Assembly: GCA_009760855.2 (NCBI GenBank)
Contig: WPIO01000126.1
Coordinates: 740,001-804,000, forward strand
Source: Cristatella mucedo
Lineage: Eukaryota; Bryozoa; Phylactolaemata; Cristatellidae
Direction of reading: 5' to 3'
Length of the DNA: 64,000 nucleotides
This document shows positions 776 through 62,190 of this stretch, piece by piece. The first letter of the stretch is position 1. The number at the start of each line of letters is the position of its first letter. Below the pieces are notes generated by a model. It was not told where the DNA came from. It saw nothing but the letters and a program-made list of their open reading frames with translations, and did not search any database. The position numbers and the translations under genes are program-made.

Positions 776-3700
776 ATGTTTCTTGTGTGTTTCGACGTTG
801 TAGATCCGCATAATGAGAACCTGGCGGCAGTCAAACACATAATCGTGGTTCTGTCAGGCAAGGGCGGCGTGGGAAAGAGCACGATTGCTACACAATTGGC
901 TCTTGGTTTGAAGCATGCAGGAAAGAAGGTATTTCAGCTCTGCTGTCCTGCATATACTATTGGTGTCTCTCTTGCATCTGAGCTCCCGATAAGTATTGAT
1001 CCAGTGGTCTGAACCTCGCAACACAAGCTACGATGCACGAACTTATTGCATCAATGCTGACCCACTGTTTGAGCATCCTGTAGATAATCTCCATTTGCAG
1101 GTGCATGTGACAATGACCGTGCACTACCCTGGTCGCAATCGCAGATAGATTGTGTGAATCTGTAGATAGCTGATTGGTTCAGAGGAACCTTACATAACTT
1201 GCTCTTTCTGTTTCTCAAATTAGAATGCATGCAGAGGCTTAAAAGGCCCAAAGGCCAACAGAAGTCAAGCAAATTCACAGAAAACATTGAAGCAGTTCAT
1301 ACTCTATCCATTGATACTCCATCCGATTCTAGAGATGTTTCAGTACGTAAGGAAAGCCAGACAGACCGTGCTGAGAAGTTGTCTCCAATATTCAGACATC
1401 GACTATAGTTTAAATACTATTGCCTCAAAAGTATTGAAGTTTGCATTTGAATTTAGTGTTACATTAAGGGCTGTGAGAACTAATGGCAATAATTGTGATG
1501 GCAAAATACGTCGAATCCGAAACTACACCATAGGCTGTTGCTATTACCGATTTTGCAAATAATAGACTGCCGCATATTTTCTGTATATTAATGAGAGCTA
1601 CAGTCTCAATAATGAGGAGGATGCGGTCATCTCGCACGACAAGCTACCTCTGACTCGGCACATGGCCATAATGACCTCTTTTCTATTAAGGAGCCGAGTT
1701 TTACACAGCGAAGTAGGCCGAACGCTTGCATCAGTCATTTGCACTGATTAGTGGCGAATGCACTCTCTTGGCATGCAAACAGACGATGGCACGTGCTCCT
1801 TCTTGCTCTTTAGTCGTTTTCCTTCATTCAGCCACGTCAGAGTGCTTGTGATTGATATTTCAGGTTGGAATACTCGACATTGACCTCTGTGGGCCCAGTG
1901 TGCCTAAGATGCTGCACGTGGAGCAAAGTGTCATCCACCAGTGCTCTCAAGGGTATGCTATTTATCAAAATTATTGCGTAACTCATGGTTGTGCCATTTC
2001 ATTATCTCTGAGATAAGCTCTCAGAAAAGGATGAGTACTTTGAAAGCAGCTCTAGCTAGTATCGGCATGTTCTGTTTGCTGTACTTATTAGTCAGGTAAT
2101 ACTTCAGGATTCTGCCCCCCAGCATGCACTTGGTCATTTAAAGCCAAGGTTGTATGTCTTGTCGATTGCAGTATAATGAAGCCGTGATAGCTTACTTGTT
2201 AAGTGTGCTGGCCCAGGTACCTGATGATGTGTTAAAGTTCCCTCATTCATGGTGAAATAGGCTGCTTGAAATCTTCCTTAACAGCCTTCGGTCATTCTCT
2301 GTTTCCGTATGTGAGGAATAAAAATAATTGTTCAAATTTATTTAGTGAGTGCAGAAAAAGTATTAGGATTAGCACCATCAGCAGCTTTGCCATTAAGTGT
2401 TTGGAGGAGTCGAGGTAATGTTGTAATCCACTATTTTTATCCAACGTTTTGTGGGCTACAACTTGCGTGCCTCTACAGGGGCAGTGAGGAACACGGGTGG
2501 AACAGTGGGGCAGGAAAGGAAGAAACTGGCTTCTAGTTAGGGCATGTGTTGCAAATGAATTTCTCGAAGTTCATCCCTCGGTATATTGTATCTGTGGAAT
2601 GTAACTCTTATTGACCGCTTCTTGATCAAGCACCTTCTTTGGTCGTGTTGGATCGTCTGCTATTTGATGGCTTGTTATTGCTCAGAACAGGTTCGATGGC
2701 TGCTCATGCTGATCGAAGGGTGCTGCTTGTCAGTTGCATATTAGATGTGAGCTGAGCACCCACCTTTGTGCATGCCAGATAGATGCTCTTGTGCATGAGA
2801 GCCGGCAGCACATTGGTAGGCTGTTAAATGCTTGCTGAAATGGTGGTGACCCACATCCAATGTGGCTGCCAGCTAACGGTTAAGGAAGCCACGGACAGCT
2901 AACAGAACTGACCTCGATGACTGTTCGGATTTGAAAGCAGGTGACATGTCTGCACAGTGAACTTGATGACACCGGCAAGGGTGGAGCAAATTTTTGGCCT
3001 ATGGTATTGTTGGTCTTCTCGGTCAGCCATAGCATTTGTCTGATGTAGAGTAGAGAAGTCTTTGTGCACGCCTACTTTGTACCCAAAAATGTATTTTAGA
3101 GGCTAACTTGGGTTACGTTTCCGGTGCTTCAAGACAGGGTATTTGCATTTTGGTATTTGCTGGACGGCCGGGTCGATTTAAATTGATAAATCATCAGCAC
3201 ATATGGAGCTAACCTTAGCTTTAGGTTCCATAGCTGCTCGTTACACCTATGATCTCTAAAACGTCTTCTGTGCCTGCTACTCTTTCCCTTCCTCTCTGCT
3301 GGTACGATGTGCCATAGGGTTGTGGCACCTAGGAATTGGCCAGCATATGAGGGGGCGAGCTGAAGAGCACTGGCAGCAGCAGCAGACCTCCACCGCAGCT
3401 GTGTGGCCTGGTGAGCCATAGAGAGATGGCAACGGTGCCAGTGATGGCAACGACGTTGACATAGGAGAAGGTAAAGGAAAAAGAGTAGGAATAGGACAGG
3501 AAGAGGAGGAGAAGAGAAGGAGGGAGAGATGTTTTGGCCTGCCACCGGACTCTGGACCGCTTTGTGGAGTCTTGCTAGCTGTGTCTGAACGTCTCGATTG
3601 CTTTGGCCTTCACTGCATCGCACGCCCAGCAAAAAACGCCCAGCAAACGATGAAGGCGCCTCTCTGCAGGGGCCACTGCTGGCAGGCATCTGGCTGCATC

Positions 3701-6700
3701 TACCCTGGGTAGCTGTACAGAGCAAGCCTGACAGGCTACTAGTTTATGACTAGTCTCCCCCACTTGTTCAAGTCAACGTGTCGTACTACGGCATCGGTTG
3801 TGCCAGGTCAGTTTCTGCTAAGGGCACGGTGCCCATAGCAGGCTGTTCAACATGGTTGCCAGCATCTGTTTTTATATTTATGTTAAATGAGCATGTCTTA
3901 GAGCTATCCTTTTGGCTCAGGGTTTAGGATTTTGGGTGCGGTATTTACAGGTTGTATGTTTTTTGTTGACGGCTTGGCGTTTAGTAGTTAGATTAGCAAA
4001 TTTTTTGGGGTTTGGAGTTTTTGTGCTTAGGGTTTAGGTTTTAGAGAGAAACTCGAAACAGAAAAAATATATCAAAACATATTTTTCAACGTAAATATAA
4101 ACAGCCGCTAGTGATTGGGTTGAGCACCGTGCCGTAGCAGAAACTGACCTGGCTCTCTGCATATAACAATGTCATCATATTGGCTGCATTGCATGGCAGC
4201 CTGCTCCGGCAGCAGCTGCCAGCCCACGTGTGCTTCTGCCAGCCGCTGCCTGCGTCGGTCGGTGCCACTCACTTGGCAAAGGCTGCGCGAGTGCCCGCGG
4301 TTTTGAGGCGTGCCTCCTCAGACGGCTGCTTTCCTCTCTGCGAGTGACTCCATTCACTGTGTGGATGGAAGGGGTTGAGGGTTTCCACGGCTCGGGCACC
4401 GGGGAGCTCCTGATCTGCCCCTCTTCAGACGCTTTCCTGCATCCTCATTTACCCTTCCCCGTCGGAGTGACCACACCTTGACGACCTTTCGAGCTGCTCA
4501 ATTTGGCCACCTGCATCAATGCATGCTGGCCTGGCTGTTCTCAAGCTGTGCTCAACGAGCTTTCGTGTTAGCCTAGCAATAGCGGCTCGATATTGGGCAA
4601 TTCTTTTTCCAGATGGGTGCCAGTGTATGCTGGTGGTGATGAAAATCTCGCGGTCATGTCGATTGCCTTTCTATTAAGTTCGAAAGACGATGCTGTGGTT
4701 TGGCGAGGACCCAAGAAAAACGGTACGTGTCACCCTCACTTATATCTGGTCACCTACATAATAATAATAATACATTTGTATAGCACCCTCAGAGAACTTA
4801 ATCTTTTTCCTTGGCACTTTACATATGCTGCAAAGAAAGCGTGGTCGAATGGTTAATTGTAGCATGCTAGCTCTGAGACCGAGCAGCCGTAGCCAACCAG
4901 CTTCCCACCCCAGCCTTCTCCCCACCCTAGAAAGGATGCCTCATCCCGTCCAGTCTCACCAGAGTTTGATCGGCTTGGGCAAGTCGAGCTCTTTCGTAAG
5001 CAGTTGCTAGCCGGCCTGTCACTGCTTATAGTTACTTCTGCTGCTGCCAATGTGAACACTTGGAGGAGCACGTGAAAAGGACTGCAAACTCGAATGAGCG
5101 TTTGCAATACTAACGAGTGCTACGCTACGCTTATGCCAGCTTGCACTAGCACTTTTAAAGAAGACACTCGTGACCACCGGTTAGCATGATGCGTGGTTTG
5201 TAGCATGCTGTCAATCGTGGGCAGGCGAGCACACGAAGCACAGAGGAACAAAAAAAGTCAAGTTTGCCGGGGCGCTGGTAAAGCTGAGCGCAACAGATGC
5301 ATTTTTAGCTGACACTTAAAGGATGCAATATATCGTGGCACGTGTTAGCAGAGGCCAGGAGGGCGTCCTAGACTTTTAGTGCATATGAACTAGAGGTTTT
5401 ATCACCAACGATGTCTATTTAGTGCAAGGGGCAGTTGCAAGACATCGTCCGACTATCTGGGCTCCATGAGCAGCCACGTGTAATCAATAACAAGTCTTTC
5501 AATCGTGTATTGAGGGGCCTTGGCCTGCTTGCCTGTGCCAGGAAGTGGATATGGACGGAGATACCTTGCCCCCCCCCCCGGAAACCGGACGAGCAGCCTT
5601 GCTTGAATCTTGGACTGCAGCTCCCCTGAGTTCTGAGTGCTGAGTCCCTGAACGATCTGGTGGCATGTGGCTGCCGTCTGGCCTGCCGATTGATGGGCGC
5701 ACAACAACGTGGAAAGGAAGAGAGCCTCGAGAGCTGGCTGCTCAGGGAAGCTGCACGATTCTCCAGATTCGGTTTCCATCTCTCTTCTATTCTATTCACA
5801 TTTCTACCTGCACAAGTAATCTTGACTCCGGCGTTATGCGGTCCTTTTGAAAGTGCACCGATGACAAGAGAGGCACGTGCACTATGTGAATCAACGGAAT
5901 GCCCCGCGATTTGACGGGTTTCGAGAGCGGATTGACGTTAATCATGCCGTGCAGGCTTTCTCGATGAAATCCTCAGAGGCGAGCACTGCAGTAGCGGGAG
6001 CTCCGGGAGCTCGAGGAGCTCTGACGATCGCAAAGTGCATGGTGCAGTGTGGTCCAAGGTAGATGAGTCGAGAGACTGCCGGATTTTTGCGAGTGCCAGT
6101 CTTCAGATTTTGTGACGAGGGAAATGCGATTCAGCTCTAGATGCCCTGCGGTGTCAGGAGGCCGGCTTTGCAGAGGGCTCTGCTCACTGCTGGGTGTACA
6201 TGTCAAAGGGTGTCATTTGTAGATTGGCTCCCCCTCCCAGAGTACTGACCTACGCATGCATGTTGTGTGGCCCACCAGCAAAGCATTGCTCCGGAGCCCC
6301 GTTTTTTCATTTTTGGCACATCGTGGTGACATGGCTTTCACGTTGTTCAGGTGTGAATTTTTCCTATTCATGTTTGAGCAGCTTCACCATGGCTATACCT
6401 TGTCAGGTGCAGACTTGGTCTTCATTAAAGAAGCCAAACTATTTTCACACGTTTCTGACACCGCATTTAGATTATTGCGATTCCCTTTATTTGCGACACT
6501 CGACCTTTTATTGTTTGCATCTGGTGCAAATCTCAGTTGCTCGCTTGTCGTCAGCAGCATAGCTGCCACATGACCTTGCTTCTGTCTGATCTTCACTGGC
6601 TCCCCATTAAGCAGTCAAATCGATTTCAAGATCCCCAATCTGGCTTTGAGGTCGCTTCACTCGCTAGCACCAGCCTACCCATCCAACCTCCTTGCCTGTT

Positions 6701-9700
6701 CAGTGTGCTTTCGCACCACCTGCTCGTCAGCATCTAGTAATCTCAACATGCCGCACACTAAATTGAAACCTCTAAGTGTGCACCAACAGTCTAGAACTTG
6801 CTAATGTGTACCGGCACTACCTGCAACGTGACCTTGCACCCTTGAAGTCTCAGCTGACGATGCAGCATCTGTTCCGATCAGCTTTCCCTTTATTACGTAT
6901 ATGCAGATTATTCCTGGTCATTCAGTGCCATAACTCAACAGCCTCTATATTACGTGCAACTTCACCGGTGCCGTGGGTGTTCTGCTTGCCCGTGGAAATC
7001 GAATAACGCAATGCATATTTTGTAGCTATGATCAAGCAGTTCCTCACTGACGTGTATTGGCAAGGGCTCGACTACCTAATTATTGACACACCACCTGGCA
7101 CATCGGACGAGCACATATCAGTGGTAGAAAACATCCGCAGCTACAATCCTGACGGTGCCATTCTGGTCACCACACCGCAGGCAAGTACTCGCAGCATGCT
7201 GTGAACCCGACTCCATTGCATCCCTTGCCCGAAATTTGTCAACTTCCTTTTTTATAAGACAGTATGCTCGCAAAACATGCTGACGTCACATGGGTTGTTG
7301 TGGTGCTATGCACAGACCTCTCGATCATTGAATCGAGATGCTGTTCTCATTGAGTGTGCTGTTGGTGTATCGGGTCTGTAAGCTAAGCACCAGTCAGGCT
7401 CTCTCTTTTTGTCGGCTTTCGTTGATTGATGGTGCTTTATGACTGACCTATGCTACTTTTTTATTATGCAAGCCAACAACCTGGCTTCCAACCTGGCTGT
7501 CATAGAAGCTATCATGCTGTGGATAAGACAGGTCGCTAAGCCCTCATGCTGTGGATAAGACAGGTCATCACTCTAGTAGAGATGTCTTTTTTGCAGATTT
7601 CCCTTTCCAGCTACCATTTAGCCAGCATTTTCCCTCCCCCCCAATGTACGTGTACAGGCTATGGACTGAGTGTCAACGGCTGCAGTCAGAGTTGGGGCTT
7701 GGGAGTCAGCCGATTGGCAGTGCGAGCACTCTTGTCTGTAGCTTAACCGAGTTTGCTGTTTTTGCCAAGCCTCAGCAGCTTAATGGCTGCCGGTGTCTGA
7801 CCCTTGTCACTCATAAGGTCTGTCAATGCAGATTAAAGCGATGCCTAAGCAGCTACGCCACTGGCACTATGCTGTGAGCTGAGGTCCGGAGGCCTGCATC
7901 TGACATTTTTGCTATAAGGCATTGATTCGTTGCTGTTCCTCACCATTACGTTTCCGGAGGCATATATGTCAATCGGCTTCTTATATCCTTCATAACTCTC
8001 TTGCGTAAACGTGAACTTGCCTGCGTAACACCCACACAGTCTTTGTGGCTTTGTGGAGTTACAGATGGAGATGCATTACATTACACTATATTACATTACA
8101 TTATGTCCTTTTCAGTGCAATGTAGCTGACAATAGCACCTGAACTGCTGTCGGATAAGAACGTTCAATCGTTTCCTCTAGTTTAGCTCAGGTGGAGGCGC
8201 TCGATGCAGATTGTTTTGTCGCACGCCTAACACCAGACGGATTTTCGTGGGATGATGACTGCTAATAAATCTTGAGATCCACCTCCGTAAATCGCATGCC
8301 GCGCAAAGCGTGACCAGGAAAACGGCGTGAAATAATGCTGAGATGTTGCAGCTAACAACTTTGAGTAGGCGAGTGTTTGAAATTCTTTTATCGAATCTCC
8401 GAGTTTTAGCATCAGCATGAAGATTAGATGCTATAATTAAGGTGTTTGTGGTGCTGAGAAACTGGACAACGTCAACGACGAGTGTTCCTTGTTTTTCCTA
8501 CTTAGTTCGGCTGATACCTCTCACCGGTTCTTGCCTTTCACGACCGAGGTCAAGGTGAATGGATTTGATGACCGAGGTCGTGGGATCGAGCCCTGCAGTA
8601 TACGTGAAGCGCCTGGATAGAGATTTTAGAAGTTCTCCAAGGGTCCTTTTTAAAAATTTATTTTGTCATCACAACGTTATGTTTGATTTTTCGCTTGCGT
8701 GGCTAACTTCATTACTGCACTTTGGCTTGTCACGCGTGTATGCTGGTGGCCTTGCACTAGTGTCATGAACATCGAGTGCGGGCTGTTTCAGGCTGTGGCT
8801 GTCGGCGATGTACGAAGAGAGCTTACATTCTGCCGAAAGACAGGGATCCCCATACTTGGAGTTATTGAGAACATGAGCGGATTCGTGTGCCCCACGTGCC
8901 AGGTGAGTGAAGTCGTTACGTAACTGTTCTTTTCGGACAAGCAGATTTTTGCATACGGCATGTTTGACAATAAATGCTTGACGATAAATGCTTGGCGAGT
9001 GAGCTGGTCATCTGAACAGACGGGCTCCTCCCGACTCGCTCACTTTGGAGCAACTATCCTGAAAAGCGACCGTTGCTTTCGTTGGTGGTCCCTGCTTGCC
9101 AGACTGGCTCGATGCGGCCTCACTGCATTCGCCTAGTTTCATATGCACGTTGAATGGCTTGCAGCGCTGGGCAGTAGTTGGCAACGGCTCATTCTAGCTG
9201 GGGCGATGGCTGCTACAGAGGCTGCAGCCACTGCCTCAGCTGGCTGTAGTGACACCCTTCTTTCGGACCGGGCTGATCGTTTAAGTGCCCTTCACCTGAC
9301 AATCAATGCCACCTCACGTAGCTGCCATTTTCATCAGCTTTGTCTTGTTGCATAATCTGAATGGTACGATCGATGAGTCGGCTTAATTTCGATGTAACAG
9401 CTTCGATGTGCCACGCCGCAGTCAAGCTGAATTATCTTGTGTGATGGGAACTTGGCTGGCACCAGTGGAGATGCGAGAGAGGAAGAGTTGTGCTAATGCA
9501 CTACTAAACAAACATGCTTCTTGACCCTCCGACCTTGTTCATGACTGGTGCTAATGTTCCAAATAGCTTGGCTAATAGTACCTAGTGCTGGTTATGCATC
9601 GAGCAATGCAGAGCCTGCAAATCCCGCCCTTAGTACCCGAGCATTTTCTTGCATTTAACTATTTCCCTAACGAGCGTGATGGTGACTGTGAACTTTAGTG

Positions 9701-12692: not shown

Positions 12693-13560
12693 AGTAATGT
12701 AATGTAATGTATCTCCTTCTGTAACCCCACATCGCCAACGGTCTTTAAGCTGAGGAATGGATCATCTAATTTATTGTCCATACATGACGCGAGGGCACGA
12801 AGAGGCTGAAACTGATGCAGCAGTTCAACTACGTATGGAAGAGCCAATCAGTTGCAGGTCTTGTGGGTCAGCGTAAGAACTTTGCTCTGTATCCGTTGAT
12901 TAACCAACAGCCATCATAGCTCTTTTAGCAAAGGAGACACGTGCTCAAACCTCTGGGACTTGAAGACTAGCCTTGCAGCAATATTCATACCAGCTGCAAT
13001 GGCCTAGTTGCCTTTTTTGGTAGCCCAGCCAAAAGGGAATTACAATAATCGAGCCGAGACAGAACTAAGGAGCTAGTTGAATTTTTTGCAAGCCGCTGTA
13101 GAAGACAGCTCCTAATCTTAGATAGGCATTCGACGTGATAGCTAGATGTAGAGGCAGTCTTATGAATGAAGCTTTTAAAATTTGCACAGCTTTCGAAAAC
13201 GGCATATAAATTTCGAGCACGTGACGGTCGCACTACAGCATCACCTATTAGAAGAGCAAAGCCTTTTAATCCAGCCACACGTTTAGGGTGTCCTATGAGC
13301 AGCAGTTCGGTTTTATCGTCATTGGTTTCAAGAAGTTTTCCGACATCCAGCATCGAATGTCGGCAAGGCAAGCATCCAGCTTATTAGTTGCTGCAGCAGA
13401 TTCCGGCGGTCTGAATGACAAATAAAGCTTGAGTATCGTCAGCATAAAAGTGATATCCTATTCCACGGGCCTTAATCACTTTTCATAGAGGTTGAGCATA
13501 AATGGACAACAGCAAGGGACCCTTGAGGGACTTCGCAGGTCTCGTGTGTGAGACCTGACC
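12693..13560 (-). mobile_element. L2-B retrotransposon, 3' part with RT remnant
   Basis: The element begins (in + coordinates) with the reverse complement of the (ATTAC)n tail and the GTTACAGA.GGAGATACA block. It runs back through the C-terminal RT region LDYCNSLLAGLPKKA, the finger region LETNDDKTELLLIGHP, and the catalytic motif FYADDTQ near 13455. The order matches an L2/CR1-type reverse transcriptase. The longest open stretch is 12985-13371, and frameshifts separate it from the YADD block. No endonuclease is present, so the copy is 5'-truncated and inactive. Confidence 0.75.
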
Positions 13561-13784
13561 CCCACACGACACGGATTGAACACGACCATACAAGTACAAT
13601 TTAAACCACGCCAAATGCCTCGTCTGCCAGACCGATCGTTGTTCTCAATCGTTCAAGTAGAGTCTCGCCGTGACTTCAGCTGCACGGCGAGCGCTCACGA
13701 TTGCTGCGCTAGCTCTCGGGGACAGGAGCAGGCAGCAGCTTACCGTCCTTTCGGCCGAGCCCCTAGATCGGCACGACAAATTTA
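13561..13784. other. Unassigned spacer
   Basis: Overlapping short ORFs without domains. I see no repeat I can name. Confidence 0.4.
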
Positions 13785-13872
13785 ATAATACTAATAATAC
13801 ATTTGTACATCGTCCCCGGAGAACTGAATCTCTTTCTAGACACTTGACAGATCGAGCTTGGCCGGTGCTGTA
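13785..13872 (-). mobile_element. L2-A 3' tail fragment
   Basis: A (TAA)n run, then 'catttgtacatcgtccccgg' and 'ctgaatctctttctagac', which is a mutated reverse complement of the L2-A terminal stem-loop. Confidence 0.7.
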
Positions 13873-13973
13873 AATGCTGAGCAAGCTTCATTATTGCGCA
13901 GCATCATCGAAGTTTGCTAGCGCCTGCACAGCGATGAACCCCAAGGACTCCTGAGGTGAAGTGCGGGCCGATC

Positions 13974-14046
13974 TCCGGCTAGATCGAATAGATAGAATCT
14001 CGATAGATAGAATCTCGAATCTAGATAGAATCTCCGGCTAGATCGC
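13974..14046. repeat. Short tandem repeat (GATAGAATCTC-type units)
   Basis: Four imperfect units of about 14-18 bp built on 'tagatagaatctc' are bounded by two copies of 'gatctccggctagatcg'. A run of 13 C lies 30 bp further right. Confidence 0.7.
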
Positions 14047-14148
14047 CGAGGGAGCAACATGGCCTCGGATCAAGCCCCCCCCCCCCCGTTGGCCGCTCGA
14101 GTGTGAGCAGGAGCCCGAAGAGCAGAGCCGATCGTGACGCGTAAGCGC

Positions 14149-14727
14149 CTAACTGCCCACATTGGATCGAAGCCACTCGATGACGTCGGCCGCGTTTCGG
14201 TCCGGCGGAAACACCGGGTAGAAGAGCTTCGCGATTTCCCCGCCCAGGACGATCAGCGTTAGCCGCTTGAGCAGTGGCACGCCTTCGACCTCGAAAGTCG
14301 GCAGCGCCAGCGCCTCGGTAAGCGCAAGCTCTTGATCAGAAAGCAAAGGGAACGGCAGATGGAGGCGATCGGCAGCTTCACGCTGGTACGCTGTCGTCTG
14401 GGTTGAGAGGCCGAAGATGTGGGCGGCGCCAGCCGCTCGCATCTCCTCGAAGTGATCGCGAAAGGCGCACGACTGCGGCGTGCAGCCACGGGCACCCGGA
14501 ATCGCGTCCCAGCCTTCCGGCAAGGGCTCGCCAGGCTTGCCAGTCTTGGGATAGGCGTACACTACTGCGACGCCCTCGAGCGACGACAGATCGACGCTAC
14601 GGCCGTCTGTAGCTGACAGCAGCAGCCCTGCCGGTAGCGTAAGGCCGACAAGGTGCCTAGCAGCACCGTCGTCCGTCGGCTCCGGAATCCTGCTCCAGTC
14701 AACATCCAGGAGGTTTACCTGGTTCAT
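14149..14727 (-). CDS. PrxQ/BCP-type peroxiredoxin, bacterial-like, intronless
   Basis: Peroxiredoxins of the AhpC/TSA superfamily reduce hydrogen peroxide and alkyl hydroperoxides with a peroxidatic cysteine. The 192-residue product has the thioredoxin-fold segment VAVVYAYPKTG (residues 53-63) and the motif GCTPQSCAFRD (81-91). In that motif Cys82 is peroxidatic and Cys87 resolving, spaced C-x4-C as in PrxQ/BCP. SDQELALTEAL and the C-terminal FYPVFPPDRNAADVIEWL follow. The insert KPGEPLPEGWDAIPGA before the active site fits a bacterial branch of the family. I chose ATG 14727; the frame stays open upstream to a GTG at 14778, but the protein then loses its natural start MNQVNLLDVDW. The ORF is complete (TAG), uninterrupted and has no poly(A) tail, yet lies between an L2-A tail and a SINE. 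Horizontal transfer, or contamination or misassembly, is more likely than a native animal Prx6/Prx1-4 gene. Confidence 0.82.
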   Translation of the reverse strand: MNQVNLLDVDWSRIPEPTDDGAARHLVGLTLPAGLLLSATDGRSVDLSSLEGVAVVYAYPKTGKPGEPLPEGWDAIPGARGCTPQSCAFRDHFEEMRAAGAAHIFGLSTQTTAYQREAADRLHLPFPLLSDQELALTEALALPTFEVEGVPLLKRLTLIVLGGEIAKLFYPVFPPDRNAADVIEWLRSNVGS

Positions 14728-15002
14728 GTTTACGCTGTGTCGTCGCCCAATTCGGCCGCCGGCGTAGTAGCTCAGCACGTCAGTGGTTTAATAAGACCGG
14801 TCTGGCTCGCTGACTTGTGCTCTGGCCGCTGGCTGAAGCAGCTCCGTCCTGGCCAGCCAGTGTCGCGAGATGTGCCGCGGCCGCTTAGGACAAGCTCTTC
14901 TGGTTATCTCGGGATATCTCTTGTTAGCTCGAAATGAATCAAGAGACTGAAAGTAAACAGTTCCATTACTTTAGTGATGGGGCGGGGCGATATGCTGTAT
15001 GC

Positions 15003-15170
15003 CTCGCTGGATTGGCCCAGTGGCTAGGCTGCTCGCCACAAACCAAGGTCAAGGTGAATGCATTCGATGTGGGTTCGTAGCCTCAAACCCTGTGGCATAT
15101 GTGAAGCACCCAAATAGAGAATAAGTTCTCTTAGGGTGTTAATAAATGAATTATATTTCTATATTACATA
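15003..15170 (+). mobile_element. SINE-A (tRNA-headed SINE)
   Basis: The A box is TGGCCCAGTGG and the B-box region reads 'gggttcgtagcctcaaaccc' with changes. The body 'gtgaagcacccaaatagaga' is followed by 'aagttctcttagggtgtta', which resembles the L2-A terminal stem-loop. No acceptor-stem pairing is present, so it is not a tRNA gene. Confidence 0.75.
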
Positions 15171-15236
15171 TTAAATTTAACACTGCCAGCCAGCTTAGGC
15201 TGTGGTAAGGGGGGCAGGTGGACCCTTAACCCCTGA

Positions 15237-16358
15237 GCTTTTGATACCATCGATCACAAAGTACTTCTAGAGCGCCTCTCATCTCGCCTGGGCATCACTG
15301 GCACTGCTCTGCAGTGGTTCAGGTCCTATCTCAGTGGGAGACTCCAGAGTGTTGACGTGAATGGACAAAGATCATCTGAAGTACCTCTAAAATATGGAGT
15401 ACCTCAGGGCTCTGTGCTAGGTCCGGTCCTTTTCACCGTTTATACTCTCCCTCTCGCTGATGTGATTGCCAAGCACAATCTAGGCTTTCACTTCTATGCG
15501 GATGACACTCAGTTGTACCTTTGCTTTGATCCCTCCCAGCCTTCGAGCACCTCAAATTCTCTCAACTCACTTGCTGCATGCATTGATGACATCCGATCAT
15601 GGATGGCAGCACATTTTCTAAAACTAAACGATGATACAACTAACTTACTAGTTATGGGCAAACCTAGTGTTATTCAGAAATTGGAAAGGCTGACTTTCAA
15701 AATTGGCTCTGCCAGCATATCTCCAGTTGCATCAGCTCGAAATCTAGGTGTCATATTCCAAAGCGACCTCTCGTTAGACGACCACATCAGCTCCACAGTC
15801 AAATCAGCCTATTTTCAGCTTCATAACATTGCTAAAATTAGGGCTTGTTTAGATAAGGATACCACGTCCAAGTTGGTCCATGCATTCGTGACATCTCGTC
15901 TCGACTTCTGCAACTCACTGCTTACAGGCCTACCAGCATGTGCGATCAGACGATTGCAGCTGGTGCAAAACTCTGCAGCTAGGCTTGTCTGTCGTGAGCG
16001 TCGCAGTTGCCACATTACTCCACTTCTCGCCGACCTGCACTGGCTACCAGTCAAGCAACGGATTGACTTCAAGGTTTTGTCGCTCACTTTTAGGTCTCTT
16101 CATTCTATGGCTCCAGCCTACCTTTCAGATATACTACCCCATCAGGCAAAGCATCGTACCACTCGCTTTTCGGAATCCAACAGTCTAGAAATACCTCGTA
16201 CAAACCTTAAATCCTTTGGAGACCGTGCATTTAGCTCGTATGCTCCCACAGCCTGGAACTCCCTCCCGACCTGCATCAGAACATCCCCTGACCTGACCAC
16301 ATTTAAAAGAAACTTAAAAACATACCTATTTAGGACAGCATTTAGTGGGTCCTTGTGA
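15237..16358 (+). pseudogene. L2-A reverse transcriptase, C-terminal part
   Basis: An uninterrupted reading frame of about 373 codons from AFDTIDH to FRTAFSGSL. It covers the palm motifs GVPQGSVLGPVLF and FYADDTQLY, then thumb motifs NSAARLVCRERR and LADLHWLPVKQR. It lacks the endonuclease, the RT fingers and NYRPVSLLP, so it cannot work alone. The RT of non-LTR elements copies RNA at a nicked chromosomal target. The open frame reflects recent insertion rather than selection. Confidence 0.9.
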
Positions 16359-16523
16359 TTCGTCCTCGATGTGCTTATGCGTGCTGACACTGTTCATGCT
16401 GCCACTAACCACATTTGCATGCTGACCCAGTGCATGTAACCCCTAACCATGTTATTCATTTTGTTTGTTTTTCAAGCATGATTTTACTTACTATTCTATT
16501 GCGTATCACTTTGCAGCAAATGT

Positions 16524-16563
16524 AAAGCGCCTAGAAAGAGATTAAGTTCTCTGAGGGCGCTTT
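16524..16563 (+). other. L2-A terminal stem-loop (proposed RT recognition hairpin)
   Basis: The outer stem AAAGCGCC (16524-16531) pairs with GGCGCTTT (16556-16563) over 8 bp. The inner stem AGAGA (16537-16541) pairs with TCTCT (16548-16552) around the loop TTAAGT. It sits directly upstream of the (ATT)n tail. L2-clade elements of fish are known to need such a 3' hairpin; its role here is inferred. Confidence 0.65.
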
Positions 16564-16594
16564 ATCAAGTGCAATATTATTATTATTATTATTG

Positions 16595-28459: not shown

Positions 28460-29186
28460 TGTAGCCGAGTTCCAGTGGTCAGAGGTTAATTTCCGCCAAA
28501 CCTCGCCATACTCCGGCCAGGCCGCCGCTCGCCATGCCGCTGAGCTAGGGTAAGACGAGCGGCCGTCAGGTTAGACCTCTTTGTAATATCGTATGCGCCA
28601 ACAACAACAGGGGCGCTAAACAAGTCTACAGGGAGGGTCATATACAAAGTACACTATAGGGGCGCAAGACGACGAAGCAAGCGCGAACAAACGTGTTAGT
28701 CAGGCGGGTTCCGCAGTCCCGTTGTTGTACCGTCTCCATTCCAACAGTACGAGTGTACGCCATAAAAGATCCGGCTAGCTGAGTAACTGCTTAGCTGGTC
28801 GGAGTCTACGTCCACCACAGTCGAGAGCTTCCGCCGAAAGACACCAACTCACGGGGGGCCACGAACAGGCTACTCGGGGAACGCGTATAATACCAAGTCA
28901 CAACAACGAGCGTGCTATCCAGCTCCGCTCGGGCTTTGGGTACTCGTTGCCGTGCGTGCGTGGCCACATCTCCGGAGCACGCCTGCATCCATCCAGGTGC
29001 ATAAATCGGCGAGACCGGGAGCCTCCAGCACCATGACTTACTCGGCCAACTTCCCTACCCAAGAGCCCCGGTGACTCTCGTCACCGCACATCCGGCCATA
29101 CCCACAGGTCAAACCCAAGCCTAGCTTGTGACCCATATCGCATTACAGCCGTCCTGTCCCAGCCAACCGAGCCTAGCCTGGGTACA
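28460..29186. mobile_element. Solo LTR, copy B (727 bp, TSD AAAC, opposite orientation to copy A)
   Basis: Read on the minus strand it begins TGTACCC and ends GGCTACA, homologous along its whole length to copy A. It is flanked by AAAC at 28456-28459 and 29187-29190. The flanking L2-A reading (VDQLN) stops exactly at the left boundary. It has no internal coding region. Point differences and small indels from copy A show that both insertions are old. Confidence 0.85.
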
Positions 29187-29402
29187 AAACTAATCACACA
29201 CAAATTTCTAACTTAAATAATTAGATAATTATTAGATAGTTAGAGTCTCTCTGTTTTTTTTGCTGTAACTATCAGCAAAGTGTGACACTAGCCTGGGTAC
29301 AAAGCTAATCACACACAAATTTCTAACTTAAATAATTAGATAATTATCAGATAGTTAGAGTCTCTGTTTGTTTTTGCTGTAACTATCAGCAAAGTGTGAC
29401 AC
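29173..29402. repeat. Tandem duplication across the LTR B boundary (2 x 115 bp)
   Basis: Unit 1 (29173-29287) and unit 2 (29288-29402) are almost identical. Each contains the last 14 bp of the LTR (ctagcctgggtaca) plus the adjoining 101 bp, so the duplication arose after the LTR inserted. The units differ at a few positions, e.g. aaac against aaag. Confidence 0.9.
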
Positions 29403-29784
29403 TAAATGACTACCATTTTGAACACCGGCCATCTCATCTGGGCTGCACTGGCACTGTACTGCAATGTTTCAGGTCCTATTTCAGTGGGATACTTCAGAGC
29501 ATTGTGAAGTCAATGGCAAACAATCATCAGAGCAGCTTCGAAACTGTGGGACACCCCAGGGATCAATGCTTGGTCCACTCCTTTTAACATTTACACTCTC
29601 GATCTTGTCAATGCCATCGCCCAGCTCGAGCTAGGTGTTCGTTTGTATGCAGAAGAAACACAGAGCTGTACCAGTGCTTTAAGTCTGCCCTGGATTTCAG
29701 CTCGTCGAACTCTTTAGCTCCCTTGCAGCGTGCTTAGCTAATATTCACACGTTGATTGCAGCAAACTTTCTCAAATTGAACGAC
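29403..29784 (+). mobile_element. Older L2-A copy, continued (RT palm)
   Basis: Reads LGCTGTVLQCFRSYFSG, a GTPQGSMLGPLLL-like block, then VRLYAEETQSCTSA and AANFLKLND. The last residues are immediately followed by the tail of L2-A copy 2 at 29785. The YADD motif is decayed to YAEE. Confidence 0.78.
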
Positions 29785-30019
29785 AATAATAATGATAATA
29801 ATATTGCACTTGATAAAGCGCCCTCAGAGAACTCAATCTCTCTCTAGGCGCTTTACATCTGCTGCAAAGTGATACGCAATAGAATAGTAAGTAAAATCAT
29901 GCTTGAAAAACAAACAAAATGAATAACATGGTTAGGGGTTACATGCACTGGGTCAGCATGCAAATGTGGTTAGTGGCAGCATGAACAGTGTCAGCACGCA
30001 TAAGCACATCGAGGACGAA

Positions 30020-31822
30020 TCACAAGGACCCACTAAACGCTGTCCTAAATAGGTATGTTTTTAAGTTTCTTTTAAATGTGGTCAGGTCAGGGGATGTTCT
30101 GATGCAGGTCGGGAGGGAGTTCCAGGCTGTGGGAGCATACGAGCTAAATGCACGGTCTCCAAAGGATTTAAGGTTTGTACGAGGTATTTCTAGACTGTTG
30201 GATTCCGAAAAGCGAGTGGTACGATGCTTTGCCTGATGGGGTAGTATACCTGAAAGATAGGCTGGAGCCATAGAATGAAGAGACCTAAAAGTGAGCGACA
30301 AAACCTTGAAGTCAATCCGTTGCTTGACTGGTAACCAGTGCAGGTCGGCGAGAAGTGGAGTAATGTGGCAACTGCGACGCTCACGACAGACAAGCCTAGC
30401 TGCAGAGTTTTGCACCAGCTGCAATCGCCTGATCGCACATGCTGGTAGGCCAGTAAGCAGTGAGTTGCAGAAGTCGAGACGAGATGTCACGAATGCATGG
30501 ACCAACTTGGACGTGGTATCCTTATCTAAACAAGCCCTAATTTTAGCAATGTTATGAAGCTGAAAATAGGCTGATTTGACTGTGGAGCTGATGTGGTCGT
30601 CTAACGAGAGGTCGCTTTGGAATATGACACCTAGATTTCGAGCTGATGCAACTGGAGATATGCTGGCAGAGCCAATTTTGAAAGTCAGCCTTTCCAATTT
30701 CTGAATAACACTAGGTTTGCCCATAACTAGTAAGTTAGTTTTATCATCGTTTAGTTTTAGAAAATGTGCTGCCATCCATGATCGGATGTCATCAATGCAT
30801 GCAGTAAGTGAGTTGAGAGAATTTGAGGTGCTCGAAGGCTGGGAGGGATCAAAGCAAAGGTACAACTGAGTGTCATCCGCATAGAAGTGAAAGCCTAGAT
30901 TGTGCTTGGCAATCACATCAGCGAGAGGGAGAGTATAAACGGTGAAAAGGACCGGACCTAGCACAGAGCCCTGAGGTACTCCATATTTTAGAGGTACTTC
31001 AGATGATCTTTGTCCATTCACGTCAACACTCTGGAGTCTCCCACTGAGATAGGACCTGAACCACTGCAGAGCAGTGCCAGTGATGCCCAGGCGAGATGAG
31101 AGGCGCTCTAGAAGTACTTTGTGATCGATGGTATCAAAAGCTGCCGAAAGATCGAGCAAAACAAGAAGAGACACTCTAACCATGTCTGCATTCCTAAGTA
31201 GGTCGTCGTATACCCGAAGCAATGCTGACTCTGTGGAGTGATTAGCTCTAAAGCCAGACTGGAACTTACTAGCAAGGTGTGAGGTTTCGATATACGAGTT
31301 CAGCTGGTCTGCCACGACCCGTTCCAGTGTCTTTGATAGGAATGGTAGAAGGGAGACTGGGCGGTAGTTGCTTAAGTTCTCTTGGTCTAGTGTAGCTTTC
31401 TTGAGAAGTGGCCTGACTACTGCTTTTTTGAAAGGTGCTGGGACCTGACCTGAGGCTAATGACATATTAATGATGTTGGTTATGCATGGCAGCAGCAGAT
31501 CAATGCAACGTAGGAGCAGGACAGTGGGAATAGGGTCCAGTGGACTTGTTGTCTTCTTTGATTGAGATACGAGCTTTAGGACTACATCACTAGTGACCTG
31601 TTTAAATGCAGACATTGAGGCGCAGCCAGGAACCGAGGAACAGCATTCTAGTGGGAAGGTTGTCATCGCAGGGATGGATTCCCTGATTTTGTCTATCTTC
31701 TGCACAAAGAATCGAGAGAAGCGATCGGCTAGATCATCACAAGGATCATCAGGTAAGGAGCTAACCTGGGAACGGTTGAGGAGATGGTTTATTGTCGACA
31801 TCAGCATTTTTGGATTGTGCAT
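30020..31822 (-). pseudogene. L2-A reverse transcriptase (600 codons open)
   Basis: Non-LTR reverse transcriptase for target-primed reverse transcription. RT motifs lie in order: NYRPVSLLP at 152-160, LLDLSAAFDTIDH at 222-234, GVPQGSVLGPVLF at 281-293 and catalytic YADD at 314-317. Thumb motifs LDFCNSLLTGLP, NSAARLVCRERR and LHWLPVKQR follow, with C-terminus FRTAFSGSL. The first ATG (31822) is not a real start. The frame should join the endonuclease upstream, but a single-base loss in an A run (plus-strand T run 31839-31845) separates the two. No stop breaks the RT part. Confidence 0.9.
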
Positions 31823-32879
31823 CTGTGATTCAACAATGTTTTTTTATAGAAGCTAGACTTAGCCTTTGCTAGGATCGATTGGTACGACCTACAGTAGTCT
31901 TCATATGCCTGTCGATGGACAGTTAGTCCGGATCTTTTGTATGCCTTTTCAAGCTTTCGTTTAGTAGACTTGGCTAGTTTAATGTCTGTGGTAAACCATA
32001 GGCCGTCTGGGCGGGGGCGCACAGTGCGCTTTGTCAAAGGTGCAAACTCGTCGAGCGTGTCAGCTAGTGTCGTGTTGTAGCAATCTACCAGTGATGACAG
32101 ATCGGAGGGAGGACTGAGCAGCAAAGGTGAAGCAGATATGCTCGCACGGACAGCATCGATGTCAAGGGTCTTGAGGTTTCGCGATTCACAGGTTATTTTA
32201 GAGGAGAATGTGGGCACACACTGTAGATTGAATGAGATCTGCATGTAGTCAGATAAGCAGGATTTGGTGATAACTGGTGATGACAAAGTGCAGTTATATG
32301 AGAAAATTTGGTCGAGTGTGTGACCCTTGATGTGGATAGGGCCATGCACATGAGTCACAAGAGATAATGAGTCTGTCAATGTACGAAATTCGGTGCTGAA
32401 AGCGTCAGATAAGTTATCAAAGTGAACGTTGAAATCATCCATAACGAGGAAGGATCGATTTCTTGCACACAGAATCGAAATGAGATCGGAGAAATCTGAG
32501 ATAAAGGAGGATTTGGTACCTGGTGAGCGATAGACTACTTCCACTATCGGTAGCTTGTTTTCGGGTGAGACCAGGACAATTGATTCAAAAGACTGCTTCG
32601 AGGGTACCGCAAATGGCTTGAAGTTGAATTTCGAGCGCACGATCATAGCAACTCCACCTCCAGTTTTGATTGATCTAGGGGTGTGAAAGAACGTGAAACC
32701 AGATGGAGTAGCGTCTTTAATTGTCGGGCAGTTTATCGATTTCAGCCAAGTTTCAGTTAGGGCGAGCAGGTCAATACCATTTTCAGAAATAAGGTCGTTT
32801 ATTAATGACGAACAAATGAACTTACTAATAATGGAAAAAATGAGTGCTCTTCTAAGAATCAGAAGGCCTAAGTCATAAA
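31801..32879 (-). pseudogene. L2-A APE-type endonuclease part, frameshifted, SDH changed to SDY
   Basis: APE-like endonuclease that nicks the chromosomal target. The frame is open from about 32946 down to a stop at 31801; codons before 32646 give LLALTETWLKS and GFTFFHTPRSIKTGGGVA. Further motifs are VLVSPENKLPIVEVVYRSPG, LVMDDFNVHFDN (Asp/Asn catalytic motif) and HTLDQIFSYN. The last catalytic motif reads CLSDYMQISF, with Tyr where the family has His. The older copies at 27.6 kb and 33.8 kb keep SDH, so the substitution is private to this copy and should abolish nicking. The frame ends early through the shift at 31839-31845. Confidence 0.85.
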
Positions 32880-41135: not shown

Positions 41136-41525
41136 TTGGCGACGAAAAAGCCCTGCCACGCCTCCTTTTCTCGTTGTCGCGCTCGCGACCGGCCGTCGCC
41201 TCTGACTCGGCAGATGACGTCCGGCTCGACGCCAGCGCCGACGATAGTGTCCGTCCTGGCTGACTTCTCAGGCAGGCTCGACTACATGCTAAGCGTGGTA
41301 AACTGCGTAAGCCATCTCTCGCGGCGCCCCGCTCGCGTAGCTTGGCTGCGCTGGTCTGGTCCTCAAGTCGTGCTGCCGCGCGGTTGAGAAGTGACGGGCG
41401 AATCCGTTGCGGCCACGAGGCGAATGAAGCGCGTCAGACGACCCGGGACGTCTGTCGACGACGCCCGGTTCGCATCGGCGGCTGAATGAGCCTGCCGCCA
41501 CGTGTCAGTCTGCGGGTATCTGGGA
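41136..41525. other. Unassigned CpG-rich spacer
   Basis: Overlapping ORFs on both strands, typical of CpG-rich sequence, with no domains. Confidence 0.35.
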
Positions 41526-41680
41526 TGCCGCGCTGGTTTGGCCCAGTGGTTAAGGTGCTCGCCTTGACCAAGGTCTGGGCGAGGTTGGTCGTGGGCTCGA
41601 GCCCCGTGGCGTATGTGAAGCACCTGAATAGCGATCCGAAATTCTCTTTGGGCGCTAAACAAATAAATTGTAATATCTCA
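41526..41680 (+). mobile_element. SINE-A (complete)
   Basis: Head 'ccgcgctggtttggcccagt' with A box TGGCCCAGTGG, B box GGCTCGAGCCC, body 'gtgaagcacctgaatagcga', tail 'aaattctctttgggcgct' and 'aaataaattgtaat'. The tail resembles the L2-A end. Confidence 0.82.
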
Positions 41681-62024: not shown

Positions 62025-62190
62025 TGCCGCGCTGGTTTGGCCCAGTGGTTAAGGTGCTCGACTCGAACGAAGGTCAAGATTTATATGTTTGATGACCAAG
62101 GTCGTGGGCTCGAGCCCCGTGGCAAATGCGAAGCGCCTGAATAGCGATTAAGTTCTCTTAGGATGCTGCGCAAATGAATTGTATATAGGA
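62025..62190 (+). mobile_element. SINE-A (complete)
   Basis: Head 'ccgcgctggtttggcccagt', A box TGGCCCAGTGG, B box GGCTCGAGCCC, body 'gcgaagcgcctgaatagcga', then 'ttaagttctcttaggatgct' and an A/T-rich end. It has the closest tail to L2-A of the four copies. Confidence 0.85.

Follow-up and report, generated by a model that had tools for sequence, protein, structure and literature searches.

Animals are well known to gain bacterial genes, and each such gene that is well anchored in an animal genome is valuable singly, as the use that the animal makes of it is testable. The locus described here raises this question in a compact form: is an intact reading frame for a bacterial-type peroxiredoxin, found in an animal contig, a gene that the animal acquired and kept, a foreign sequence carried without being used, or a product of the assembly? 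The stretch of DNA analysed, called the window throughout, is 64,000 nucleotides long (C29:740001-804000) and belongs to an assembly of 572 Mb in 688 contigs. A preliminary description of this DNA had claimed an open reading frame (ORF) of 192 codons at 14149-14727, with a complete active site, a bacterial-like insert before it and neither frameshift nor intron, and had proposed either a recent transfer or an artefact. The structural claims hold, and the strand, which that description had left unstated, is the minus strand:

14149..14727, minus strand: PrxQ-like peroxiredoxin ORF of bacterial type, intronless, 192 codons and a stop.
14482..14484, minus strand: codon of Cys82, the putative peroxidatic cysteine, in GCTPQSC at the start of the model helix 82-91.
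14467..14469, minus strand: codon of Cys87, the putative resolving cysteine, in the same helix 82-91 of the model.
14494..14541, minus strand: insert of about 15 residues ahead of the putative peroxidatic cysteine, relative to 5enu; boundaries approximate.

The ORF runs from an ATG at 14727 to a stop at 14149. Its 192 codons contain no internal stop, so neither a frameshift nor an intron interrupts it, and the plus-strand frame of the same interval is interrupted by stops. The insert consists of about 15 extra residues that are missing from the solved PrxQ-type protein 5enu and present in the bacterial relatives. A methionine aligned to residue 1 and a similar N-terminus are found in 12 bacterial rows (L112, L116, L118, L121-L129), which probably makes the ATG at 14727 the original bacterial start; start codons are unannotated in those genomes, and the starts of 48 rows are the start codons nearest to the expected place, chosen by a script, which biases the comparison toward agreement with residue 1.

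The family to which the protein belongs can be stated with some precision. It matches the Pfam domains Redoxin (E 5.7e-15) and AhpC-TSA (E 7.9e-11) far above chance, and its structure model (mean pLDDT 93.8) has a peroxiredoxin fold, with PrxQ/BCP structures among the best matches of this confident model. Furthermore, six PDB profile matches were obtained at E <= 1e-6, all of them PrxQ/BCP-type or generic peroxiredoxin entries; domain and fold are thus those expected of PrxQ/BCP. A peroxidatic and a resolving cysteine five residues apart in one helix are the mark of PrxQ, and in the model Cys82 and, five residues on, Cys87 share the helix 82-91. The NCBIfam cut-offs for PrxQ/BCP are not reached (44.2 of 260 and 36.3 of 140 bits), and all five prokaryote relatives scored against NCBIfam PrxQ and BCP also remain far below them; therefore, the protein is termed PrxQ-like rather than a PrxQ/BCP equivalog. 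This draws attention to an insert-bearing PrxQ-like group of bacteria and haloarchaea in which six of the six proteins tested fall below the curated family cut-offs.

Relatives are widespread in prokaryotes. In 84,980 prokaryote species, a pattern scan picked up 26 loci, of which 25 are 51-68% identical to the window protein over most of its length and the 26th (L027) has a 62-residue match at 39%. The plasmid collection contains 61 matching records, including 35 from Agrobacterium, 11 from Streptomyces and 4 from Haladaptatus. Genomes were also drawn from the order, the class and the phylum of L024, a Rhodobacteraceae record, and matches were found in 31 of 390 (E <= 1e-30), 11 of 385 and 13 of 398 (both E <= 1e-68), respectively; these draws overlap and comprise about 1,170 genomes in all. 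The best relative overall is L083 (Rhodobacterales), 69% identical, and none above 69% was found in the 84,980-species pattern scan, the plasmid records and the approximately 1,170 drawn genomes, all of these searches being pattern-based or made on drawn samples. The transfer would thus be old, or its donor unsampled, and the suggestion that it was recent is unsupported. Viruses offer nothing closer: viral contigs gave nine pattern matches and no relatives, phages two matching records at 28-34% identity, and BFVD two matches at E <= 0.001, of which the stronger is a phage peroxiredoxin at 14% identity.

Among the prokaryote relatives, three variants were observed. In a Streptomyces plasmid gene (L034:1081-2037) an N-terminal MerR regulator domain is fused to a peroxiredoxin of the same type, and in a plasmid gene of Microvirga ossetica (L035:1453-2310, annotated grxC) such a peroxiredoxin is fused to a C-terminal glutaredoxin. 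A relative from Methyloceanibacter (L026:2064-2570) is without both active-site cysteines (GSTPELE) and keeps much of the family signature.

Conservation was assessed column by column. In a comparison with 80 prokaryote rows, the window protein agrees at all 33 columns that are conserved at 98.5% or more, at 17 of the 18 conserved at 95-98.5%, at 31 of the 33 in the 80-95% class and at 59 of the 102 variable columns; its private residues occupy 6 of 186 columns. The same complete retention (33/33) was found for the columns strictly invariant among 25 bacterial rows, which are the pattern-scan loci minus L027 with its short, 39% identical match. When each row was left out in turn, the median row retained every highly conserved column, the window protein 50 of 51 and the lowest row 41 of 47. 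In the 81-row count, made from 83 rows minus L025 and L026, cysteine stands at the position of Cys82 in 80 of 80 other rows and at that of Cys87 in 78 of 80 (L025 has the first cysteine; L026 lacks both). The window protein is preserved to the degree expected of a functional bacterial protein, a level that is ordinary for the family. This conservation may partly have accrued in an unsampled bacterial branch leading to the donor; selection on the protein within the animal is presumed.

These results bear on the alternative that survives best, according to which the transferred bacterial gene was inserted without being expressed and is intact only since it is young. An ORF without intron and a conservation equal to that of ordinary bacterial rows would agree with an unused gene, as would the region below the stop, where AATAAA was not found in 649 bases and the only similar signal is a single ATTAAA at 13786; but a close donor was not found, the identity being at most 69% in the searches described above, and we regard disuse as unlikely, though as the alternative most deserving of attention. 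Other properties of the gene do not discriminate. Its GC3 of 0.72 falls inside the spread seen in 34 prokaryote rows (0.31-0.90) and also inside that seen in three host ORFs (0.46-0.75), so composition is no proof of residence in the host, whose GC is 48% in 210 kb sampled; and the codon usage score, -1.201 on the host set versus -1.257 on an Aureimonas set, is uninformative. The host also possesses an intronless gene of its own, a copper amine oxidase on contig C100 (L056:700-3120) with one open frame of 807 codons, so that a single-exon structure is by itself not foreign in this genome.

Whether the gene belongs to the animal contig at all depends on its surroundings. The ORF lies at about 754 kb of contig C29, which is 1,196,869 bp long, in the following setting:

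13400..13661, no strand assigned: dispersed repeat, 84-87% identical to at least 39 other places (40 of 6975 candidates scored).
13783..13850, no strand assigned: putative L2-like 3' tail repeat below the ORF, sharing 75-83% identity with eleven further sites in the window.
13840..15010, no strand assigned: unique stretch of 1.17 kb around the ORF; the 572-Mb assembly has no other match to it (a single candidate, with very common words passed over).
15000..15156, no strand assigned: repeat above the ORF, labelled SINE-like in the preliminary description, 72-74% identical to 41525-41672, 62025-62184 and 8543-8644.
15236..16400, plus strand: LINE piece with reverse transcriptase, L2-like, 99.3% identical to 29978-31142.

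The label of the L2-like tail is suggested by one of its copies, at 16521-16588, which follows just past an L2-like frame ending at 16358, and the LINE piece at 15236-16400 is presumably a member of the L2 family. In the assembly, host repeats therefore stand on both sides of the ORF within one 1.2-Mb contig. They had been described as uniformly decayed retrotransposons, a view that has to be abandoned: the stretch 13840-15010 is unique in the assembly, and the L2-like copy at 15236-16400 is young, as its 99.3% identity to 29978-31142 indicates. The matching LINE, at 29978-32646, carries an intact ORF for a reverse transcriptase of 600 amino acids and an upstream ORF of 281 amino acids without a Pfam match, and the identity between the two copies suggests recent activity. 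Next to this LINE, a 115-base unit occurs twice in tandem at 29173-29404 (94% matches). Searches for tRNA genes and Rfam families in the 64-kb window found nothing.

An assembly chimera, in which a piece of bacterial DNA was mistakenly joined into the animal contig, has to be weighed because the assembly does contain bacterial DNA. Contig C3 (L062, L063) is bacterial, exceeds 1.4 Mb and represents a symbiont or a contaminant; it is the single place in the assembly with an rpoB above the curated cut-off. It also encodes an ispE above its cut-off, a glmU-like protein below it, a BCP-like protein (129.8 bits against a cut-off of 140) and an AhpC-like one (134.2 bits against 272). As a source of the gene, the C3 bacterium was rejected, its BCP-like protein being 26% identical to the window protein over 77 columns. 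Three weaker rpoB matches are on C110, C55 and C3; the one on C110 (6087785-6088363, 74 bits, six stops) may belong either to a host gene split by introns or to a decayed fragment of bacterial DNA.

The flanks of the ORF were compared with prokaryote loci as open pieces of at least 20 residues, in six frames on both sides. Against 26 bacterial loci (E <= 1) and 88 prokaryote loci (E <= 0.05) nothing convincing was found: a match of 47 residues at 30% identity to L020 (E 0.007 and 0.013) was the only one to fall under 0.05, and the remaining ones, from the comparison with the 26 loci, lay at 0.1-1. Nucleotide comparison by blastn, with at most five subjects per query, yielded nothing beyond exact runs of 14-16 bases (E 0.024 to 0.43). 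The transfer of a longer bacterial segment was rejected on these grounds. A chimera would require the insertion of a bare gene, free of bacterial neighbours, from a bacterium undetected by rpoB, and a thinly covered contaminant without rpoB would indeed escape that search; but bacterial homology is found on neither side of the gene, the gene sits deep in a long contig, and C3 is the sole rpoB source over the cut-off. Against its own assembly, moreover, the window protein has one match at E <= 0.001, the ORF itself, so the gene is single copy. We consider a chimera very improbable. Since the single copy lies in a unique stretch of 1.17 kb with repeats on both sides and flanks free of convincing bacterial homology, and since the PrxQ of C3 is different, horizontal transfer is much more likely than contamination. 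Of the two original proposals, transfer is thus favoured over an artefact, on the up to 69% identity to bacterial proteins, the lack of another own-genome match, the flanks and the exclusion of C3 as source.

A phylogeny had been recommended, and its bacterial part was carried out with trees of prokaryote rows plus the window protein, a sampling in which a eukaryote sister would not show. In a 35-row tree, built on all of the rows then in the set minus L027, the window protein joins L024 with support 86/84. A 71-row tree, which omits 12 of the 83 rows as near-duplicate, partial or divergent (L004, L007, L022, L023, L025, L026, L029, L107-L111), places it beside L083 with support 91/70. This join should be read as tentative, its support being modest and the smaller tree having chosen L024 instead. 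In the larger tree, the window protein and 46 bacterial rows, from the order, class and phylum draws plus three Agrobacterium rows, lie on one side of a branch supported at 99/94; Aureimonas, Rubrobacter, Acidobacteriota, Streptomyces and haloarchaeal rows are on the other side. Both trees place the window protein among bacterial rows; with a midpoint root, long branches and prokaryote-only rows, they do not fix the donor. The least credible alternative, vertical descent from an ancient animal gene that most animals have lost, could find room in a comparison set of prokaryote rows plus the window protein, but that protein reaches 69% identity with bacterial proteins and is placed among, not outside, them, and a survey of ROS genes reports no PrxQ in the animals that it covers except for a bdelloid rotifer (PMC7730656).

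The assembly was also examined for what the animal has of its own. Pfam Redoxin is found at seven places in the whole assembly, one of which, a piece on contig C657, is closest to the Prx5 2wfc (Arenicola, according to its title; E 2.2e-18), and the peroxiredoxins of the host do not match the window protein at E <= 0.001. Contig C688 (21,008 bp) reads as a mitochondrial genome in the invertebrate code, its gene names being a reading of the translations. The block ND5-ND4-ND4L-CYTB-ND6-ND1 lies on one strand, an arrangement that we take to be spiralian-like; COX1, ATP6 and COX3 are on the strand of this block, ND2 and COX2 on the opposite one, and the large rRNA and one tRNA were found by search. 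From this contig and the Prx5 piece the host is taken to be an animal, probably a spiralian. Chaetoderma nitidulum, for which a duplicated cox2 is described (PMC4189740), was rejected as the host in view of this arrangement, since the three ancestral blocks are said to be retained in Caudofoveata (PMC11488289); Enchytraeus crypticus was rejected for its GC of 35.4% (PMC8460440), against the 48% sampled here. The same contig (L059) has a direct duplication of about 2.1 kb at approximately 1515-5515, with the same small ORFs 2115 bases apart.

Taken as a whole, the results lead us to favour a single integration of a bacterial insert-bearing PrxQ-like gene into the nuclear DNA of an animal, probably a spiralian, which has retained it intact and in one exon. 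That the gene is integrated, whether it is used or not, appears highly probable; the full reading is likely, a lower grade that reflects the prokaryote-only trees, the family-ordinary conservation and the upkeep in the animal that it includes and that disuse would deny. The donor would most likely be an alphaproteobacterium near Rhodobacterales. By analogy with PrxQ, Cys82 would attack H2O2 or an organic hydroperoxide and become a sulfenic acid, which Cys87 would resolve into an intramolecular disulfide, to be reduced by thioredoxin or glutaredoxin; the Microvirga fusion hints at glutaredoxin as a plausible partner. Expression, peroxidase activity, reductant and selection in the animal are the parts that we infer. 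A literature search under terms other than the host species name found no report of this gene. The chances seem to us evenly balanced that, in a spiralian other than a bdelloid rotifer, a bacterial peroxiredoxin that bears the insert and is fed by glutaredoxin or thioredoxin has been domesticated into a functioning single-copy gene and has added a peroxide-reducing class that animals otherwise lack. The gene is short, intronless and single copy and carries a clear biochemical prediction, which makes it a quickly decidable case.

Several known systems invite comparison. The closest by sequence is the insert-bearing group of prokaryote "peroxiredoxins" (Aureimonas, Rhodobacterales, Agrobacterium plasmids, Rubrobacter, haloarchaeal plasmids), whose members align with the window protein over most of its length, have the insert in common with it and, in almost every row, the same cysteine pair; the window protein differs in lying on an animal nuclear contig and in sharing no more than 69% identity with any member found. 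Proteins of the PrxQ/BCP type, such as Xanthomonas PrxQ and BcpB of M. tuberculosis, are also among the closest known systems. The host Prx5 belongs to the same peroxiredoxin superfamily but its matches are split into several segments, as a gene with introns would give, whereas the window ORF is single-exon. Among animals, the PrxQ reported from a bdelloid rotifer likewise resides in an animal, a likeness drawn from the description in the survey rather than from sequence, and the abstract of that survey ties the expansion of rotifer ROS genes partly to horizontal transfer (PMC7730656). The putative prokaryote-derived Mn-SOD of the leech Helobdella robusta and of a rotifer, as described in the same survey, is likewise a spiralian antioxidant gene that may have come from a prokaryote, in an enzyme class different from that of the window peroxiredoxin (PMC7730656).
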